Of a DNA stretch of 64,000 bases, positions 26,893 through 36,076 are shown in pieces; the stretch's first letter is position 1, and the number at the start of each line of letters is the position of its first letter. The position numbers and the translations under genes were made by a program. This DNA comes from Halobaculum gomorrense (lineage in GTDB: Archaea > Halobacteriota > Halobacteria > Halobacteriales > Haloferacaceae): the NCBI RefSeq assembly GCF_900129775.1, contig NZ_FQWV01000008.1, positions 62,001 to 126,000 of the forward strand. Direction: 5' to 3'. The notes under the pieces are model-generated. The model had not been told where the DNA came from, made no database searches, and saw only the letters and a program-made list of their open reading frames with translations.

Positions 26893-26951
26893 GCGGCGGG
26901 CTGGCCTCGCCCGCGCAGGCAATTCTTTCACAGTCGGGTCCCACCGAAGAT

Positions 26952-26979
26952 GACTAATAGCAACGCAGGTGTAGACACC
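26952..26979 (+). promoter_or_regulatory. Promoter and dyad operator of the amino-acid ABC operon
   Basis: GACTAATAG (26952-26960) is TATA-like and lies about 30 bases before ATG 26986, implying a leaderless mRNA. Between it and the start is a perfect dyad GGTGTAGACACC (26968-26979, 5-base arms), well placed for a repressor. This also argues against translation from the ATG at 26950, which overlaps the TATA element. Confidence 0.5.
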
Positions 26980-26985
26980 CACGCT

Positions 26986-27789
26986 ATGGACAGACGCACC
27001 TACCTCAAGTCCGCCGGCGCGGCCGGCGCGGCGCTTTCGGTCACCGGTTGCCTCGGCGGCGGCGGCGGGAGCGAGACGATCACGATCGGATCTGACATCC
27101 CCTACCCGCCGTTCGAGATGATGGAAAACGGCGAGGTCACCGGGTTCGACCCGGCGATCGCGCAGGCCGTCTTCACCGACGAACTCGGCTACGAACACTC
27201 GTTCAAGGACACCTCCTTCGACGGCATCATCCAGGCGCTGAACAACGGCAACTTCCGGGTGATCATGTCCGCGATGACGATCACCGAAGAGCGCGCCCAG
27301 GAAGTCGACTTCTCGGATCCGTACTTCACCGCTTACCAGACGATCGCGACGCTCGAGAACTCCGACATCACCTCGAAGGCGGACCTCGCGGGGAAGACCG
27401 TCGGCGTCCAGAAGGGGACGACCGGCGCGGGCGCCGCCGAGCAGCTCAAGTCCGAGCTGAACGGCGACCTCACGATCAAGCGCTACGACACCATCGCGTC
27501 GGCGTTCAACGCCCTGTTGAACAACCAGGTCGCCGCCGTGATCAACGACAACACCGTCAGCGCCGAGTACGTCAGCAAGAACGACGAGGACCTCCGGTTC
27601 GTCGAGGGCGAGGGCGCGGCTGCCGAACAGGGCCGTGAGGCACCGCCGTACCTCACCCTCACCGTCGAGGACTACGGGATCGCGTTCCGCAAGGGGGACG
27701 AGCTCGTCTCCGAGGTGAACGACGCGCTGGCGACGATCAAGGAGAACGGCACGTACGACGACATCTACTCGGAGTACTTCGCCGGCTGA
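26986..27789 (+). CDS. Amino-acid ABC transporter substrate-binding lipoprotein
   Basis: A 267-residue periplasmic-binding-like protein (SBP family 3). The N terminus MDRRTYLKSAGAAG has a Tat-type twin arginine and a lipobox SVTGC with Cys22, so it is probably exported folded and lipid-anchored. The mature domain begins TITIGSDIPYPPFEMME and continues with DPAIAQAVF and VGVQKGTTG, typical of glutamine/arginine-type binding proteins. The start at 26986 is chosen over an in-frame ATG 12 codons upstream because that one sits within the TATA-like element. It is followed by permease and ATPase genes (gap 10 bases, then a 4-base overlap). Ligand identity unknown; a polar amino acid is likely. Confidence 0.9.
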   Translation: MDRRTYLKSAGAAGAALSVTGCLGGGGGSETITIGSDIPYPPFEMMENGEVTGFDPAIAQAVFTDELGYEHSFKDTSFDGIIQALNNGNFRVIMSAMTITEERAQEVDFSDPYFTAYQTIATLENSDITSKADLAGKTVGVQKGTTGAGAAEQLKSELNGDLTIKRYDTIASAFNALLNNQVAAVINDNTVSAEYVSKNDEDLRFVEGEGAAAEQGREAPPYLTLTVEDYGIAFRKGDELVSEVNDALATIKENGTYDDIYSEYFAG

Positions 27790-27799
27790 ACCCAGTTCC

Positions 27800-28666
27800 A
27801 TGGGTACCAGCCACTCGTCCCACGACGCCGAGGCGTCCGGATCGACACAGATCGCTTCCGACGAGACGCTTCGCCGGCTCAGTATGGCCGTCGCCGGAGC
27901 GTTCACGCTGCTCGTGCTCGCGTTCCTCGCGATCCTCTTTTTGGGCGCGTACATCCCCGTCGAGTCGTTCGGCGAGGGGTTCGTCGACTACTCGCTGCTC
28001 GTTCAGATCCTCACGCCGCCGTCGGGGTACTACACCGCGTTTCTCAACGTCATCGGCGTCGTCGTGGTCTCGGCGATCACCTCGGTGATCGCAGGGATCT
28101 TCGTCGGGCTCGGCCGCGTCTCGAAGACGCCGTTCACCGCCCGGATCAGCCGCGCGTACGTGGAGTTCTTCCGCGGGACGCCGTTGTTGTTCCAGCTCAT
28201 CGCCGTGTACTACGGCATCCCGGCGCTGTTCGGCACGGGTAACTTCCCGATCCAGAACTTCGGATGGCCGGCGGCCGTCATCGGGCTCACGCTGAACCAC
28301 GCCGCCTACACGGGCGAGGCGGTCCGCGGCGGGATCGAGTCGATCCCGGAGGGGCAAATGGAGGCCGCACGGACGCTCGGGATGGGCTACGTGCAGTCGA
28401 TGCGGGAGGTGATCCTCCCGCAGGCGTGGCGCAACGCCGTCCCCGCCGTCGGCAACGACATGATCATCCTGGTGAAGGACACGTCGCTACTCACGGTCAT
28501 CGCGTTCCCCGAACTCATCAGCCAGTGGCAGTACACCTACTCCAACACGTTCGATGCGTGGACGCCGCTGGTCGTCGTGGGCGCGCTGTACCTGCTCATC
28601 ACGGTGCCGCTGTCGTCGATCGTTCAGCGCGCCGGCAGCGTCGTCGAGACGGGTGATCGGCGATGA
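27800..28666 (+). CDS. Amino-acid ABC transporter permease
   Basis: A 288-residue polar-amino-acid permease of the HisM/GlnP type. A polar N-terminal 30 residues precedes about five or six helices. The EAA loop that contacts the ATPase is IPEGQMEAARTLGM. The family's N-terminal helix pair ARISRAYVEFFRGTPLLFQL is well conserved. A single permease gene implies a homodimer. Stop and ATPase start overlap (ATGA at 28663-28666), so the genes are translationally coupled. Confidence 0.92.
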   Translation: MGTSHSSHDAEASGSTQIASDETLRRLSMAVAGAFTLLVLAFLAILFLGAYIPVESFGEGFVDYSLLVQILTPPSGYYTAFLNVIGVVVVSAITSVIAGIFVGLGRVSKTPFTARISRAYVEFFRGTPLLFQLIAVYYGIPALFGTGNFPIQNFGWPAAVIGLTLNHAAYTGEAVRGGIESIPEGQMEAARTLGMGYVQSMREVILPQAWRNAVPAVGNDMIILVKDTSLLTVIAFPELISQWQYTYSNTFDAWTPLVVVGALYLLITVPLSSIVQRAGSVVETGDRR

Positions 28667-29403
28667 GCGATCGGCCCCACCTGCTGGAGTTCGAACGGGT
28701 GAACAAGTACTTCGGCGAGACGCACGTGCTGAAGGACATCGACCTCGAGGTCGACGAACGGGAGGTCGCCGTCGTCATCGGCCCCTCCGGCTCTGGGAAG
28801 TCGACGCTCCTGCGGTGTACGAACCGGCTGGAGGAGATCCAGTCGGGGGAGATCCGATTGGACGGCACACCGATCACCGCTCCGGACGCGGATGTCGACC
28901 GACTCCGCCAGCGCATCGGGATGGTGTTCCAATCGTTCAACCTCTTCCCGCACAAGACCGCCCTCGGGAACGTCTCGCTCGCGCCGATCGAAGTGAAGGG
29001 CATCCCCGAATCAAAAGCGCGCGAGCGCGCCCGTACCCTCCTTGAGCGCGTCGGGCTCGGCGATCAGACCGACTCGTACCCGAGCGAGCTGTCGGGGGGA
29101 CAACAGCAACGGGTCGCCATCGCCCGCGCACTGGCGATGGATCCGGAAGTCATGCTGTTCGACGAGGTGACCAGCGCGCTCGACCCCGAACTGGTCGGGG
29201 AAGTGCTGGAGGTAATGCACGACCTCGCCGACGAGGGGATGACGATGATGGTCGTCACCCACGAGATGGGCTTCGCCCGCGAGGTTGCCGACACGATCAC
29301 GCTGATGGCCGACGGCGAGCTCGTCGAGCGGACGCCCCCCGAGCAGTTCTTCGACCAGCCGACGACCGACCGCGGACAGCAGTTCCTCTCAAAACTGCTG
29401 TAA
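28663..29403 (+). CDS. Amino-acid ABC transporter ATP-binding protein (GlnQ-like)
   Basis: A 246-residue ABC ATPase. Walker A GPSGSGKST (about residues 43-51), Q loop VFQSFNLFPH, signature LSGGQQQRVAIARAL, Walker B VMLFDEVTSALD and the switch His in VVTHEMGF are all intact. It closes the three-gene operon that starts at 26986. The next gene (29576) has its own promoter, 172 bases downstream. Length is normal for the GlnQ/HisP group. Confidence 0.94.
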   Translation: MSDRPHLLEFERVNKYFGETHVLKDIDLEVDEREVAVVIGPSGSGKSTLLRCTNRLEEIQSGEIRLDGTPITAPDADVDRLRQRIGMVFQSFNLFPHKTALGNVSLAPIEVKGIPESKARERARTLLERVGLGDQTDSYPSELSGGQQQRVAIARALAMDPEVMLFDEVTSALDPELVGEVLEVMHDLADEGMTMMVVTHEMGFAREVADTITLMADGELVERTPPEQFFDQPTTDRGQQFLSKLL

Positions 29404-29575: not shown

Positions 29576-31225
29576 ATGGCTGAGAAAGACACGAGTAGAC
29601 GGCGGTTCCTCCAGGCAGCGGGTTCGGCGACTGCGGCGGTCGCTCTCGCCGGCTGTTCGGGTACCGGCGGCGAGTCGTCGCCGACCGAGGAACCGACGGA
29701 TACGAGCGGGGATTCGATGCAGACGACTGAGCCCCAGCAGACGATCGAGCGGCCGGAGCCCTCGACGCGCGACGGGTACCTCCAGCGGGCCAACCGCCAC
29801 TGCCACGACCAGGCGCCGTGGGTGTTCCTCCACCGCCAGTACTCCGTGTACGGCGTCTCCGACGACATCAACTGGCAGCCGCGCCGTGACGAGCGCGTCG
29901 ACGCGTACGCCATCGAGCCGGCGACTGACTCCGGCGACAGCGCGGTGATGACGCAGTCGCAAATGGACTCGGGGCTCGACCCGCAGGACCACCGCGAGAC
30001 GCCGACGGACAACATCGTCCTCCAAGCGTACGAGGGGCTGCTCGAGCGCGACCGCCAGGGGGCGATCATCGAGGTGCTGGCGACCGACTACCGGCGCCTC
30101 GACGAGACGACAGTACAGTTCACCGTCCGCGACAACGTCTCGTTCCACTCGGGTGACTCCCTGACGCCCGAAGACGTGGCCTACTCGATCAACCGGATCG
30201 TGAAGGAGTCCGTGGGCATCGCCTCGCCGCAGTCCGACCAGCTTGTCGGCGTCGCCGGCGCGGAAGTGGCATCGTCCGACGACCGGACGGTGAACGTGAA
30301 CCTCACCGGGCTCAACCCCATCGTGTTCCAGTCGTTCGCCACCTACTGCGACATCATGAACAAGTCGTGGGTGACGAGCCACGACAACGCGTACATCAAC
30401 CAGAACATGGAGGGGACCGGCCCGTTCAAGCTGGCGAACTACGAGCAGGGCGTCGCCGTCGAGTTCACCCGCAACGACAACTACTGGCAGGAGGCGGCGG
30501 CCCTCTCGGGGTTCACGATCAACGCCGCGAGCGAGTCGTCGACGCGCGTGAACCGACTGCTCGCCGGCGAGTCCGACATCATCGTCAACGTCCCCCCGCA
30601 GGAGGTCTCGCGAGTCAACAACAACGACGGCACGTCCGTCTCCGCCGTTCCGTCCACGCGCGTCATCTTCAACGCGATGCGGTACGACGTCGAACCGTTC
30701 GTCTCCCCGCTGTTCCGGCAGGCGGTCAACTACGCCGTCGACCTCGAGTCGATCGTGCAGAACGTCCTCCAGACGTTCGGCGACCCGACCGGGCAGCCGA
30801 CGCTGGAAGGCTTCTTCGGGTACAACCCCGACCTCGACCCGTACCCGCGCGACCTCGACCGCGCCGAGCAGCTGGTCGAGGAGTCCGGCTACGCCGGCGC
30901 CGAGATCGAGCTGATTACGCCGATCGGACGCTACCTGAAGGACGTCGAGATCGCTCAAGCGGTCGCCGCCCAGGTCGACGAGCTCCCGAACGTCACCGCG
31001 AGGGCGCGCCAGGTCGAGTTCTCGACGCTCGTCAGCCAGGTGACGACGGGCAAGATAGAGGACAAGCCCCACTGGTACCTGCTCGGGTGGGGGAACGCGA
31101 CGTTCGACGCGGTCCAGACGATCCAGCCGCTCCTCGCGAGCGACGGGGCGCTCACGTCGTACAAGAACGACGAGCTCGACCGCCTGCTCGACGAAGCGCA
31201 GAGTCTCCCAAGCGAGAGCAACTAG
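29576..31225 (+). CDS. Oligopeptide/dipeptide ABC binding lipoprotein, apparently circularly permuted
   Basis: A 549-residue SBP family 5 protein (DppA/OppA-like). Tat twin arginine RRRFLQ and lipobox ALAGC (Cys27) are followed by a polar linker. Residues about 65-113 (DGYLQRANRHCHDQAPWVFL ... VYGVSDDINWQPR) correspond to the segment that normally ends proteins of this family. Only then does the usual N-terminal part start (SGLDPQDHRETP ... AYEGLL, about 123-160), and the protein stops at LDRLLDEAQSLPSESN, exactly before the place where that tail would be expected. The permease begins 6 bases after the stop, so no lost tail lies downstream. The domain content is complete but in permuted order. 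It should bind a peptide or similar ligand. Confidence 0.88.
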   Translation: MAEKDTSRRRFLQAAGSATAAVALAGCSGTGGESSPTEEPTDTSGDSMQTTEPQQTIERPEPSTRDGYLQRANRHCHDQAPWVFLHRQYSVYGVSDDINWQPRRDERVDAYAIEPATDSGDSAVMTQSQMDSGLDPQDHRETPTDNIVLQAYEGLLERDRQGAIIEVLATDYRRLDETTVQFTVRDNVSFHSGDSLTPEDVAYSINRIVKESVGIASPQSDQLVGVAGAEVASSDDRTVNVNLTGLNPIVFQSFATYCDIMNKSWVTSHDNAYINQNMEGTGPFKLANYEQGVAVEFTRNDNYWQEAAALSGFTINAASESSTRVNRLLAGESDIIVNVPPQEVSRVNNNDGTSVSAVPSTRVIFNAMRYDVEPFVSPLFRQAVNYAVDLESIVQNVLQTFGDPTGQPTLEGFFGYNPDLDPYPRDLDRAEQLVEESGYAGAEIELITPIGRYLKDVEIAQAVAAQVDELPNVTARARQVEFSTLVSQVTTGKIEDKPHWYLLGWGNATFDAVQTIQPLLASDGALTSYKNDELDRLLDEAQSLPSESN

Positions 31226-31231
31226 GCCGTC

Positions 31232-32224
31232 ATGGGTTACGGTCGATTTCTTCTCAAACGCGGTGTACAGGGAGTGGGAGTCGTCTGGGGAGTCGTGACC
31301 GTCGTGTTCCTCCTGCGATTCATCACGCCGGGGTCGCCGATCGACACCGTGGCGCCGCTCGACGCGAGTCAGGAGACGCGACGACAGATCGCGAGAGAGC
31401 TGGGACTAAACCAGCCGCTGTACGTCCAGTATTTGGACTACATCTGGGAACTCCTCCATGGCAACATGGGGTACTCGTACATTTCGAGCATCCCCGCGTC
31501 GGTACAGGTGTTCCAGAAGCTGCCGGCGACGCTGGAGTTGGCGGTCGCCGCGAGCGTCGTCGCGATCGTCCTCTCGATCCCGCTGGGGGTCGTCTCGGCC
31601 ACGCGCCGTCACCAGCCGGCGGACTACGCGGCAACGTCGTTCTCGCTGTTGGGCATCTCGACGCCGAACTTCTGGCTGGGGATCATGCTCGTGCTCATGT
31701 TCGCGGTCGAACTGAACGTCTTCCCGACCAGCGGGCGCGCCTACGGGTTCATGCAGTCGCTGGCGGCGATCACCGGCCCGAGGCCGTTCTTCACAGTTGT
31801 GACCGCGTGGGTCGCGTCGCTGTTCCTGCCGGCGATCACGCTGGGGACGTACTTCACGGCGCTCATCACCCGGCTCGTTCGCTCGGGGATGCTCGACGAG
31901 CTATCGTCGGGGTACGTACGCGCGACGCGAGCGAAGGGGCTACCCGAGACGCTGGTCCGCTACAAACACGTGCTTCGAAACACGCTCGTCCCGGTCGTGA
32001 CCGTCCTCGGCCTCCAGTTGGGGACGCTCATTGGGGGCGCGGTCATCACGGAGGCCGTCTTCGCGTGGCCCGGACTCGGCAGTGAGATCATCCGCGCAAT
32101 CAACGCCCGTGACTGGCCGATCCTCCAAGGGAGCCTCATCGTCATCGGGACGGGGTTCGTCCTGCTCAACATCGTGGTCGACGCGCTGTACGCGTACCTC
32201 GACCCGCGGGTGGTGGCCGAATGA
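31232..32224 (+). CDS. dppB: Peptide ABC transporter permease 1 (DppB-like)
   Basis: A 330-residue permease. N-terminal GYGRFLLKRGVQGVGVVWGV is the family's first helix; the long extracytoplasmic loop that follows includes ARELGLNQPLYVQYLDYIW. Five more helices contain the EAA-like loop SSGYVRATRAKGLPETLVR. It forms a heterodimer with the next gene's product and overlaps it by four bases (ATGA at 32221-32224). Length is typical for DppB-type subunits. Confidence 0.93.
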   Translation: MGYGRFLLKRGVQGVGVVWGVVTVVFLLRFITPGSPIDTVAPLDASQETRRQIARELGLNQPLYVQYLDYIWELLHGNMGYSYISSIPASVQVFQKLPATLELAVAASVVAIVLSIPLGVVSATRRHQPADYAATSFSLLGISTPNFWLGIMLVLMFAVELNVFPTSGRAYGFMQSLAAITGPRPFFTVVTAWVASLFLPAITLGTYFTALITRLVRSGMLDELSSGYVRATRAKGLPETLVRYKHVLRNTLVPVVTVLGLQLGTLIGGAVITEAVFAWPGLGSEIIRAINARDWPILQGSLIVIGTGFVLLNIVVDALYAYLDPRVVAE

Positions 32225-33294
32225 AGATCGGACCGCTCTCGATCTCGCCGCGCACGATCCGGAACCTCCGCAAGGAGTTCCGGTCGTCGGGACTCGCGCG
32301 GATCGGCGTGGTGCTCATCGCCCTGGTGGTGCTCGCGGCGGTGTTCGCGCCGCTGATCGCCCCGCACAACCCGCGAACGCAGAATCTCGATCGCGCGCAG
32401 TTGCCTCCGCTGGGATTCACCGACACCGAGCAACAGACCCAAACCAAGATCGTGGACGGGAGCGTGCAGACCGTGACGCGAAACGTCACCGTGAACGCGA
32501 CGGCGACGTACCCGCTCGGGACGAACGCCCTGGGGCAGGACATGCTGTCTCGGGTTATCTACGGCGCGCGGACATCACTGCTGGTCGGATTGCTCGGGAC
32601 GGTTCTGGCGGCGCTGCTCGGCGTCACCGTCGGGCTGACGGCGGGATACTACCGCGGTCGGATCGACGACGCGCTGATGCGAACGGCCGACGTGTCGCTG
32701 GCGTTCCCGTCGCTCGTGCTCGCCATCGCGCTGATCGGGCTGTTCAGTCGCTTCCAGGCGGACGTGGCCTACCGGGTGAGCGACCCGCTCGTCACCTCGG
32801 GGCTCGCGGGGTGGTTCCGCGACATGGTCGGCTTGCCGACGCCGATGCCGGAGACGTTCGTCATCCCGACGGTCGTGGTCCTCGTCGTCGGGTTCGTGAA
32901 CTGGGTGTGGTTCGCTCGCATCGCGCGCGGCGAGGCGCTCTCTATCCGCGAGGAGGAGTACGTGAAGGCCGCCCGCGCGCTGGGCGGCAGCGACGTGCGG
33001 ATCGTCTTCCGGCACGTCCTGCCGAACGCCATCACGCCGATCCTCGTGCTGGCGACCATCCAGGTCGCTGCGATCATCCTGTTGGAATCGTCGCTGTCGT
33101 TCCTCGGCTTCTCCGGGACGACGCTCTCGTGGGGCTTCGACATTGCGCAAGGACGTGGCTACCTCTCGTCGTCGTGGTGGATCGCAACGATGCCCGGGAT
33201 CGCGATCGTGCTCTCGGTCATCGGCATCAACCTCGTGGGCGACTGGCTCCGCGACGCGCTCGATCCGGGTATCGAGGGCGAGGGGGGGATGTAG
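32221..33294 (+). CDS. dppC: Peptide ABC transporter permease 2 (DppC-like)
   Basis: A 357-residue permease partner of the preceding gene. The N terminus has a first helix followed by an extracytoplasmic loop longer than in bacterial DppC (residues about 45-95, including DTEQQTQTKIVDGS), then YPLGTNALGQDMLSRVIYGA typical of DppC. The EAA loop reads EEYVKAARALGGSDVRIVFR. The stop codon is immediately followed by the ATG of the first ATPase gene (33295), with no gap. Confidence 0.93.
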   Translation: MKIGPLSISPRTIRNLRKEFRSSGLARIGVVLIALVVLAAVFAPLIAPHNPRTQNLDRAQLPPLGFTDTEQQTQTKIVDGSVQTVTRNVTVNATATYPLGTNALGQDMLSRVIYGARTSLLVGLLGTVLAALLGVTVGLTAGYYRGRIDDALMRTADVSLAFPSLVLAIALIGLFSRFQADVAYRVSDPLVTSGLAGWFRDMVGLPTPMPETFVIPTVVVLVVGFVNWVWFARIARGEALSIREEEYVKAARALGGSDVRIVFRHVLPNAITPILVLATIQVAAIILLESSLSFLGFSGTTLSWGFDIAQGRGYLSSSWWIATMPGIAIVLSVIGINLVGDWLRDALDPGIEGEGGM

Positions 33295-34557
33295 ATGAGC
33301 GAACCCGCTCCCGCCACAGCGCGCGCCGGCGCCGCCGACGGGCACGGTGCCCCGGAGGGGAACCCGGACGACGTGCTTCGCGTCCGGAACCTCTCGACGC
33401 GCTTTTTCACCGAGGAGGGGCAGATCAACGCCGTCGAGTCGGTCGACTTCACCGTCCGCGACGGCGAGGTGTTCGGCATCGTTGGCGAATCCGGTTCCGG
33501 GAAGTCGGTGGCTGCGCTGTCGCTCATCGATCTGGTCGACTCGCCGGGCCGGATCACCTCCGGCGAGGTGTGGTACCGCGACGCCGACCTCGCCGACGAG
33601 TTCCGCGACGACCTGCCCGAGGCCGTCGACGGCGACTTCGTCGACACCCGACGGCTCCCCGAGGGCGTCCGGCGCGCGCTGCGCGGGCCGGCGTTCTCGA
33701 TGGTGTTCCAGGACCCGATGTCCTCGCTGAACCCCTCGATCACCGTCGGCGAGCAGATCGCCGAGGCCGTCGAAGTCCAACGGCGCGCGCGCGCGAACCC
33801 GCGCAGCACCCGCTCGCGCACCCAGGAGTACGGGATGGGTCGACTCATCGTCGACACCCTGCTTCCCAACCGCGGGTACACCTCCGAGTCGAGCATGAAC
33901 CGCGCGATCGAACTGCTCGAACAGGTCGGCATCCCCGACCCCGCCGAGCGCGCCCACGAGTACCCGCACCAGTTCTCCGGCGGGATGCTCCAGCGCGCCA
34001 TGATCGCGCAGGCGCTGGCCGGCGAGCCGGACGTGCTGATCGCCGACGAGCCGACGACCGCGCTCGACGTGACGATCCAAGCGCAGATTTTGAACCTCCT
34101 GCGCGACCTGCAAGAGGAGCAGGACACCTCCGTCGTGATGATCACCCACGACTTGGGCGTCATCGCCCGGATGTGCAACCGCGTCGGCGTCATGTACGCG
34201 GGACAAGTCGTCGAGCGCGGTACGCTCGCGGACGTGTTCGAGTCGCCCGTTCACCCCTACACGGAGGGACTCATCGGCTCGATTCCGGACCTCGACGATC
34301 CGGATCCCCGACTCCAGCCGATCGGGGGGAACGTCCCCTCGCTGCTGGACGAGGAGATGGGCGGCCGCTGCTTTTTCGCCGACCGCTGTCCGAAGGCGAT
34401 GTCCGACTGCCTGCAGGACATCCCGGAGTACGCCGCAGACGAGGGATGCGACGACCACGCCGTCAGGTGCGTACTCGCTGAACGCGAGTACAGCGAGGCG
34501 GACGCGCTCCCGGCGGACTACTTCGACCGCAACAAGGAGGTGCGGGGCGATGAGTGA
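33295..34557 (+). CDS. dppD: Peptide ABC transporter ATP-binding protein 1 (DppD-like)
   Basis: A 420-residue ABC ATPase. Walker A GESGSGKS, Q loop MVFQDPMSSLNPS, signature FSGGMLQRAMIAQAL, Walker B VLIADEPTTALD and switch His in MITHDLGV are intact. An insertion of about 60 residues follows the first beta sheet compared with bacterial DppD (region around HPY linker and RRARANPRSTRSR). The C-terminal oligopeptide domain with its cysteines is present (GGRCFFADRCPKAMSDC ... CDDHAVRC). Its stop overlaps the start of the second ATPase gene by eight bases. Confidence 0.93.
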   Translation: MSEPAPATARAGAADGHGAPEGNPDDVLRVRNLSTRFFTEEGQINAVESVDFTVRDGEVFGIVGESGSGKSVAALSLIDLVDSPGRITSGEVWYRDADLADEFRDDLPEAVDGDFVDTRRLPEGVRRALRGPAFSMVFQDPMSSLNPSITVGEQIAEAVEVQRRARANPRSTRSRTQEYGMGRLIVDTLLPNRGYTSESSMNRAIELLEQVGIPDPAERAHEYPHQFSGGMLQRAMIAQALAGEPDVLIADEPTTALDVTIQAQILNLLRDLQEEQDTSVVMITHDLGVIARMCNRVGVMYAGQVVERGTLADVFESPVHPYTEGLIGSIPDLDDPDPRLQPIGGNVPSLLDEEMGGRCFFADRCPKAMSDCLQDIPEYAADEGCDDHAVRCVLAEREYSEADALPADYFDRNKEVRGDE

Positions 34558-36076
34558 GCCCGCGTCCGCCGACGGCGACGACCGCGCCCGCGACGCGTCC
34601 GCCGACGCTGCCACCGCCGAATCGGGCGGAGACGAGCCGCTGCTCGAGGTTCGCGGCCTGCGGAAGTACTACTACGAGAACGACTCGCTGTTCGACCGGC
34701 TGCTCGGTCGCGAGCCGACCAGCGTGAAGGCCGTCGACGGGGTCGATCTCGAAGTGTACCCCGGAGAGACCCTCGGCGTCGTGGGCGAGTCCGGCTGCGG
34801 AAAGTCCACGACCGGCGAGACGCTCCTCCGGCTGCGCGAGGCGACCGACGGCACCGTCCGCTTCGACGGCGAGGACGTCATGGAGCTATCCGACGACGAA
34901 CTGACGCGCTTCCGCAAGCGCGCGGGCATCGTCTTTCAGGATCCGTTCTCCAGCCTCGACCCGCGCATGACCGTCGGCGACATCGTGAGCGAGGGGCTGA
35001 AGATCCACAACCTGCCCGAGGAGTCGCCCGCTGACGGCCGCTCCAAGCGCGAGTGGCGGCGCGACCGGGCGAGAGAACTGCTCGAACGCGTCGGGCTCTC
35101 GGCCGACCAGATCGACCGCTACCCCCACGAGTTCTCGGGGGGCCAGCGACAGCGCGTCGGCATCGCCCGGGCGCTCGCGCTCGACCCCGAGTTCATCGTC
35201 CTCGACGAACCGGTCTCGGCGCTGGACGTGAGCGTCCAGGCACAGATCCTGAACCTGCTTGAGGACCTCCAAGGGGAGTTCGGGCTGACGTACCTGTTCA
35301 TCGCCCACGATCTCTCGGTCGTGCGTCACATCTGCGACCGCGTCGCCGTAATGTACCTCGGCGAGGTGGTCGAGACCGGCCCGACCGACGACATCTTCGA
35401 GTCGCCGAAACACCCCTACACCGAGGCGCTGCTGGAGTCGGTCCCGCGCGCGTCCGTGGAGGAGCAGGGTCGGCGAGTCGACGCGCTCTCGGGCGACGTG
35501 CCCTCACCGCGTAACCCGCCGTCGGGCTGTCACTTCCGAACGCGGTGTCCAAAGGTGATCCAGCCGGCGACCGTCGACATCCCGCAAGAGCAGTACCGCG
35601 GCGTGATGAACCTCCGCGACCGTCTCGAACGCCAGGGGTTCACCGCCGAGTCCGTCTGGGAGACGCTCGAAAGCGAGCGCGACACCGTCGCGTTCAAAGA
35701 GGCGCTGCGCGAGGAGTTCGACCTCGCCGGCCTGTCGGGCGCGACGATGGACACCGTCGAGGACGCTCTCGAGATCCTTGCGAACGGTCGCGAAGAGGAG
35801 GCCGCGGACCGACTGCGGGACGCGTTCGCCTCCCCGTGCGAGGAGGAGGAGCCGGTCCTGACCGGCGGCGAACACGCCGCCGCCTGTCACCTCTTCGCCG
35901 ACGAGGAGTACGACCGCGACCTCGACCCCGACGAGGTCGGGAACGCGATGGGCGGAGTCGCCGGGGTCGAGATGGCCGGCGAACCGTCGCCGGACGGTGA
36001 CACGGCCGCCGCGGGCGACTCGGCCGACGCGACTGATTCAGCGGAGTCCGACGATGCGGACGGCGGCGCGCGGTAG
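34550..36076 (+). CDS. dppF: Peptide ABC transporter ATP-binding protein 2 (DppF-like) with enlarged C-terminal domain
   Basis: A 508-residue ABC ATPase, the last gene of the peptide operon. Walker A GESGCGKST (about 79-87), signature FSGGQRQRVGIARAL (about 205), Walker B FIVLDEPVSALD (about 226) and switch His263 are intact. The C-terminal oligopeptide domain is split: SGCHFRTRCPK (Cys327, Cys333) is separated from SPC...AACHLF (Cys430, Cys446) by roughly 85 extra residues predicted helical (340-425), where the family normally has about 15. The protein ends with a 50-residue acidic tail. The usual partner is DppD; both are needed for transport. Confidence 0.92.
   Translation: MSEPASADGDDRARDASADAATAESGGDEPLLEVRGLRKYYYENDSLFDRLLGREPTSVKAVDGVDLEVYPGETLGVVGESGCGKSTTGETLLRLREATDGTVRFDGEDVMELSDDELTRFRKRAGIVFQDPFSSLDPRMTVGDIVSEGLKIHNLPEESPADGRSKREWRRDRARELLERVGLSADQIDRYPHEFSGGQRQRVGIARALALDPEFIVLDEPVSALDVSVQAQILNLLEDLQGEFGLTYLFIAHDLSVVRHICDRVAVMYLGEVVETGPTDDIFESPKHPYTEALLESVPRASVEEQGRRVDALSGDVPSPRNPPSGCHFRTRCPKVIQPATVDIPQEQYRGVMNLRDRLERQGFTAESVWETLESERDTVAFKEALREEFDLAGLSGATMDTVEDALEILANGREEEAADRLRDAFASPCEEEEPVLTGGEHAAACHLFADEEYDRDLDPDEVGNAMGGVAGVEMAGEPSPDGDTAAAGDSADATDSAESDDADGGAR

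Follow-up and report, generated by a model that had tools for sequence, protein, structure and literature searches.

A circularly permuted family-5 solute-binding protein in Halobaculum gomorrense and repeated permutation in its archaeal relatives

Why should a peptide-binding lipoprotein begin with the sequence that closes its relatives? The question is raised by a gene at positions 29576-31225 of the window, the 64,000-nucleotide stretch of the Halobaculum gomorrense contig NZ_FQWV01000008.1 analyzed here. The gene encodes a 549-residue protein; its reading frame, residues and coordinates match those of the original prediction, which proposed a DppA/OppA-family protein of complete content but rotated order.

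Layout of the gene and its operon

The features of the gene and of the four genes 3' of it are as follows, in window coordinates.

29576..29656, + strand: Tat signal peptide (SRRRFL) and lipobox to Cys27 (LAGC), from sequence and TIGR01409
29657..29767, + strand: acidic linker, residues 28-64, with an ERPEPST motif at its end, just before the moved block
29768..29839, + strand: moved C-terminal block, part 1, residues 65-88, helix RDGYLQRANRHCHDQ and strand APWVFLHRQ, expected in lobe 2
29840..29920, + strand: moved C-terminal block, part 2, residues 89-115, YSVYGVSDDINWQPRRDERVDAYAIEP, expected to complete lobe 1
29921..29941, + strand: seam between old C terminus and old N terminus, residues 116-122, ATDSGDS, from sequence
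29942..31201, + strand: core, residues 123-542, running from the family-5 N terminus into late lobe 2, from Pfam
31202..31225, + strand: new C-terminal tail SLPSESN and stop codon, at the cut site, from sequence
31232..32224, + strand: permease dppB (BPD_transp_1), 6 bp 3' of the binding-protein stop
32221..33294, + strand: permease dppC (BPD_transp_1, OppC_N)
33295..34557, + strand: ATPase dppD (ABC_tran, oligo_HPY)
34550..36076, + strand: ATPase dppF (ABC_tran, oligo_HPY)

The lobe assignments of the two block parts are inferred, that of part 1 from the AliD and EppA structures discussed below. Family 5 is the only solute-binding family whose profile the protein matches. Pfam SBP_bac_5 (PF00496) covers residues 166-524 (E 2.7e-66, 224.6 bits against a cut-off of 32.4) and does not extend to the moved block; none of the NCBIfam equivalogs for DppA, OppA or NikA reaches its cut-off, the best being Opp5A_nikA with 135.8 against 600. 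The N terminus qualifies the protein as an exported, membrane-anchored precursor, given a TIGR01409 score of 19.9 bits (cut-off 16.7; Pfam TAT_signal stays under its own) and the lipobox LAGC, judged by eye. Normal-order haloarchaeal family-5 proteins likewise carry a signal and lipobox. Two BPD permeases and two oligo_HPY ATPases, the complement of a family-5 operon, make the locus dppABCDF-type. The protein ends where its closing block would be expected; the stop codon occupies 31223-31225 and dppB starts at 31232. It lies 0-7 bp 3' of the binding-protein gene in nearly all permuted loci. Directly upstream (26950-29403) is an ordinary, complete polar amino acid ABC transporter with an SBP_bac_3 protein, a permease and an ATPase.

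Evidence for a rotated order

For searches against the open reading frames of related genomes, the protein was split into a block (residues 58-118) and a core (119-549). Searched by itself, the block hits the closing stretch of normal-order relatives, immediately behind their core, with E values of 1e-11 to 1e-20 and 45-65% identity. The core matches the same proteins at 45-64% identity, and block identity (~45-70% overall) tracks core identity across levels. The block precedes the core in 49 distinct proteins, which we call permuted, and follows it at the C terminus in 67, which we call normal. A profile of the normal-order haloarchaeal relatives can be aligned with AccA (8ch1) across the block and as far as residue 484 of 499, close to the chain end; one built from the permuted proteins aligns with solved structures over the core only, ending where the core ends, and its N-terminal block remains unaligned. 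Separate searches and profiles thus place the block at the C-terminal end of the family, as had been proposed for residues ~65-113. That origin stands, but the limits are better drawn at 65-115, with the seam at 116-122. The cut falls in the loop that runs from the helix DELDRLLDEAQ to RDGYLQRAN, and the seam measures ~7 residues.

The canonical order has the final block at the C terminus, which the window protein does not meet; because its block is N-terminal, we class it as a permuted variant of family 5 and not as a standard member. A circular permutation is defined by complete homologous content, rotated order and functional constraint on both parts, and all three are present. Judged by these alignments, the protein is a genuine circular permutation whose block derives from the same subfamily, and its content is indeed complete but rotated, with block and core matching the same normal relatives in swapped order. 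With normal-order family 5 (DppA, OppA, NikA, AccA; cluster C) it shares the family profile, the dppBCDF operon and all secondary-structure content; it differs in having the C-terminal ~51 residues first and, by inference, its tethered N terminus in lobe 2.

Is the order real? The search of other haloarchaeal operons that had been called for found it in dozens of genomes: all nine same-genus genomes (G001-G009, 82-85% identity), 31 of the 102 same-family genomes having a close match, and 39 of 392 genomes sampled from the order. Named Halobaculum, Halolamina, Halobium and Halorubrum genomes are among them, as is one complete chromosome (NZ_CP126156.1). An assembly or sequencing error has nothing in its favor beyond the single draft contig of the window genome, and the same order in dozens of independent genomes, the complete chromosome included, refutes it. 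Both orders of the subfamily occur together in only one of the genomes matched (G015). Both parts of the protein are under purifying selection (block: dN 0.118, dS 0.368, dN/dS ~0.3; core: dN 0.102, dS 0.391, dN/dS 0.26), and motifs such as GWGNATFDA are conserved in permuted and normal sets alike.

Independent origins and a second cut site

How many times did the rotation arise? In trees built with core and block rotated to one common order, the permuted haloarchaeal proteins split into two groups. The minor group comprises proteins of G399, G379, G299 and G197, plus a partial match in G413. Its four complete members share 58-63% identity with the normal-order protein L142 (the partial G413 sequence, 51%), whereas identity between the minor and main permuted groups never exceeds 46%. 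A single clade of all permuted proteins is rejected (dlnL 90, p 0.001), and again with better sampling (dlnL 240, p-AU 0.0004). Given this rejection and the greater proximity of the minor clade to L142, the haloarchaea acquired the same cut a second time, in an independent clade. The two clades have a common cut site and a similar LPE-rich junction. The main clade is unresolved internally, with up to 3-4 changes on some trees; as one clade is not rejected (p-AU 0.27), we claim no more than one event within it. The ancestral order is the normal one, as in every solved relative.

Two loci deserve mention in their own right. The partial minor-clade protein (L141, G413:C10:8094) loses homology at residue 472 within a 936-residue open frame, suggesting a frameshift or fusion. 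Another species of the window genus (L061, G010:C16:24000-42000) has a normal-order protein, and its promoter and signal peptide are 81% identical to those of the window over 138 bp. Its genes A-C are 61-70% identical to those of the window and its D and F genes 82-83%, as if A-B-C had been exchanged; since D and F of a species of another genus (G133) also reach 83% and 73%, exchange remains a mere suggestion.

A phylum-wide search with the permuted profile detected a different rotation in another class. Protein P0002 of G626 has the last ~170 family residues at its N terminus; the cut lies ~160 residues ahead of the usual chain end, compared with ~57 for the first site. In family f21, to which P0002 belongs, genus g143 includes three permuted proteins (G559, G567, G606) and normal-order proteins in G543, G555, G666 and G693. 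Once rotated, permuted and normal proteins are up to 86% identical, and their DNA is ~79% identical in two swapped pieces; by this measure the g143 permutation is recent. G543 (normal) and G567 (permuted) form the nearest pair in nature. G626 does not group with the g143 permuted proteins (p-AU 0.0007). We therefore count at least four permutation events in archaeal family-5 proteins and possibly five, a shared origin of the G626 protein and those of the haloarchaea G240 and G041 being unsettled. The latter two (L192:2135-3781 and L193) have a permuted family-5 lipoprotein with the same mid-lobe-2 cut as G626. P0002 itself (L171, G626:C2:103732-105471) has a Sec-type signal in which no lipobox cysteine is present, and a PGF-CTERM anchor at its C terminus. 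The Pfam match of P0002 and of L192 is split into two stretches, as would be expected of a cut that lies inside the model.

Structure, origin and significance

What does the rotation do to the fold? In AliD, lobe 2 spans residues 297-582, after which the chain goes back to lobe 1 for the final 35 positions of the binding fold (583-617; PMC11192437); in EppA, domain III spans 303-530 and the chain ends at 563 (PMC7312458). By alignment to these relatives, we infer that both cuts fall in lobe 2, the first in domain III ~25 residues before the last crossover, and that the old ends joined by the seam both lie in lobe 1. The domain limits of DppA and OppA agree with this placement. Two lobe crossings would thus be kept, and the membrane anchor should shift from lobe 1 to lobe 2. 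The original prediction had placed the rotation in lobe I, which fits the seam but not the cut. Two AlphaFold runs gave mean pLDDT values of only 43 and 42 from shallow alignments of 14 sequences, and a scan of viral contigs for further sequences found none.

We consider it very likely that the gene encodes a working, lipid-anchored binding protein of a Dpp/Opp-type importer in circularly permuted form. Its order, conservation, selection and operon, and the multiple origins, are established by the data above; the fold, ligand binding, tether position and duplication route are inferred. On this reading, the closing ~51 residues of a normal protein have come to lie ahead of its usual N terminus, right after the lipoprotein linker. 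The former ends are connected through the ~7-residue seam, and the new ends open late in lobe 2, in a loop that separates two helices. We expect the rotated chain to retain the bilobed fold and the Venus-flytrap mechanism and to deliver to DppBC as before, except that the tether would enter at lobe 2 and not at lobe 1. The most likely origin, as originally proposed, is a tandem duplicate fused in frame and then trimmed at both ends, a course that may have been repeated in archaeal family-5 binding proteins. By analogy, one locus resembles the expected intermediate: L194:1855-4887 (G548:C18), a single 1,026-residue open reading frame with one signal peptide and two complete family-5 copies in one frame, whose halves are 68% identical. 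Trimming at both ends would give a permutation. L194 has not been trimmed and is not closely related to the permuted lineages, which makes it an analogue and not an ancestor; no locus catching a duplication intermediate within the same lineage as the permuted proteins was found.

Could the block instead have been captured from another binding-protein gene, the protein then losing its own C-terminal block? Such shuffling, the other route originally proposed, would leave the two parts with different histories. The linker and block do sit between signal and core, a common place of insertion, and trees of the block have few columns and low resolution. Yet block and core identities to normal relatives run parallel at all levels, and the minor-clade blocks are nearest those of the same normal relatives as their cores (L142 itself in three of the four complete members), so we regard capture as very unlikely. 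A single ancient permutation, with the normal order regained several times afterwards, would account for the cut site and similar LPE-rich junction common to both haloarchaeal clades. We give it very little credence, since many reversions would be needed across the normal lineages between the clades, all members outside the permuted clades have normal order, and the f21 genus case is recent and cut elsewhere.

It is also conceivable that the permuted protein has ceased to act in transport as a receptor and is decaying or serves as a sensor or scaffold, binding and transport data being absent. This we hold to be highly improbable in view of the dN/dS of ~0.3 in both parts, the tight coupling to dppBCDF, the motifs retained in both orders and the near mutual exclusion of the two orders across genomes. 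The reading of a functional permuted receptor leaves a further question: does permutation recur as an adaptive route and not as neutral noise, re-anchoring at lobe 2 altering how the receptor sits over its permease? By the inferred placement, every event found puts the tethered end in lobe 2, but with few events and only two sites the pattern is suggestive, not significant, and we regard the adaptive interpretation as possible but doubtful.

The closest precedent is TpMglB-2 (Tp0684) of Treponema pallidum, termed 'Cluster Bc', a lipid-anchored ABC binding protein that is circularly permuted in nature. It still binds its ligand, and the arrangement is found across many species; the authors of that work suggested anchoring as a possible reason for the permutation (PMC4990184). 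The window protein is likewise a naturally permuted, lipid-anchored ABC receptor. TpMglB-2 differs in its Type I, cluster B sugar-binding fold and in a permuted part that is C-terminal and poorly conserved in sequence; we infer that permutation gives it a fourth hinge crossover, the window type keeping two. The window protein, matching only family 5, does not belong to 'Cluster Bc', which is marked by that fold with a permuted N lobe, and the likeness lies in being permuted. We found no description of a permuted family-5 protein in the open-access papers searched, subscription papers being outside our scope. The original statement that no case had been described holds to that extent, but the rotated order occurs widely and has more than one origin.

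As a rule, a natural circular permutation is recognized as one ancient event. The large receptor family described here has undergone at least four such events, one of them recent, at two cut sites. Annotation pipelines should take warning, as family models detect only the core and miss the rearrangement. The matched permuted and normal pairs allow the origin of permutation, its cost in stability or binding, and the role of anchor position in ABC import to be tested.
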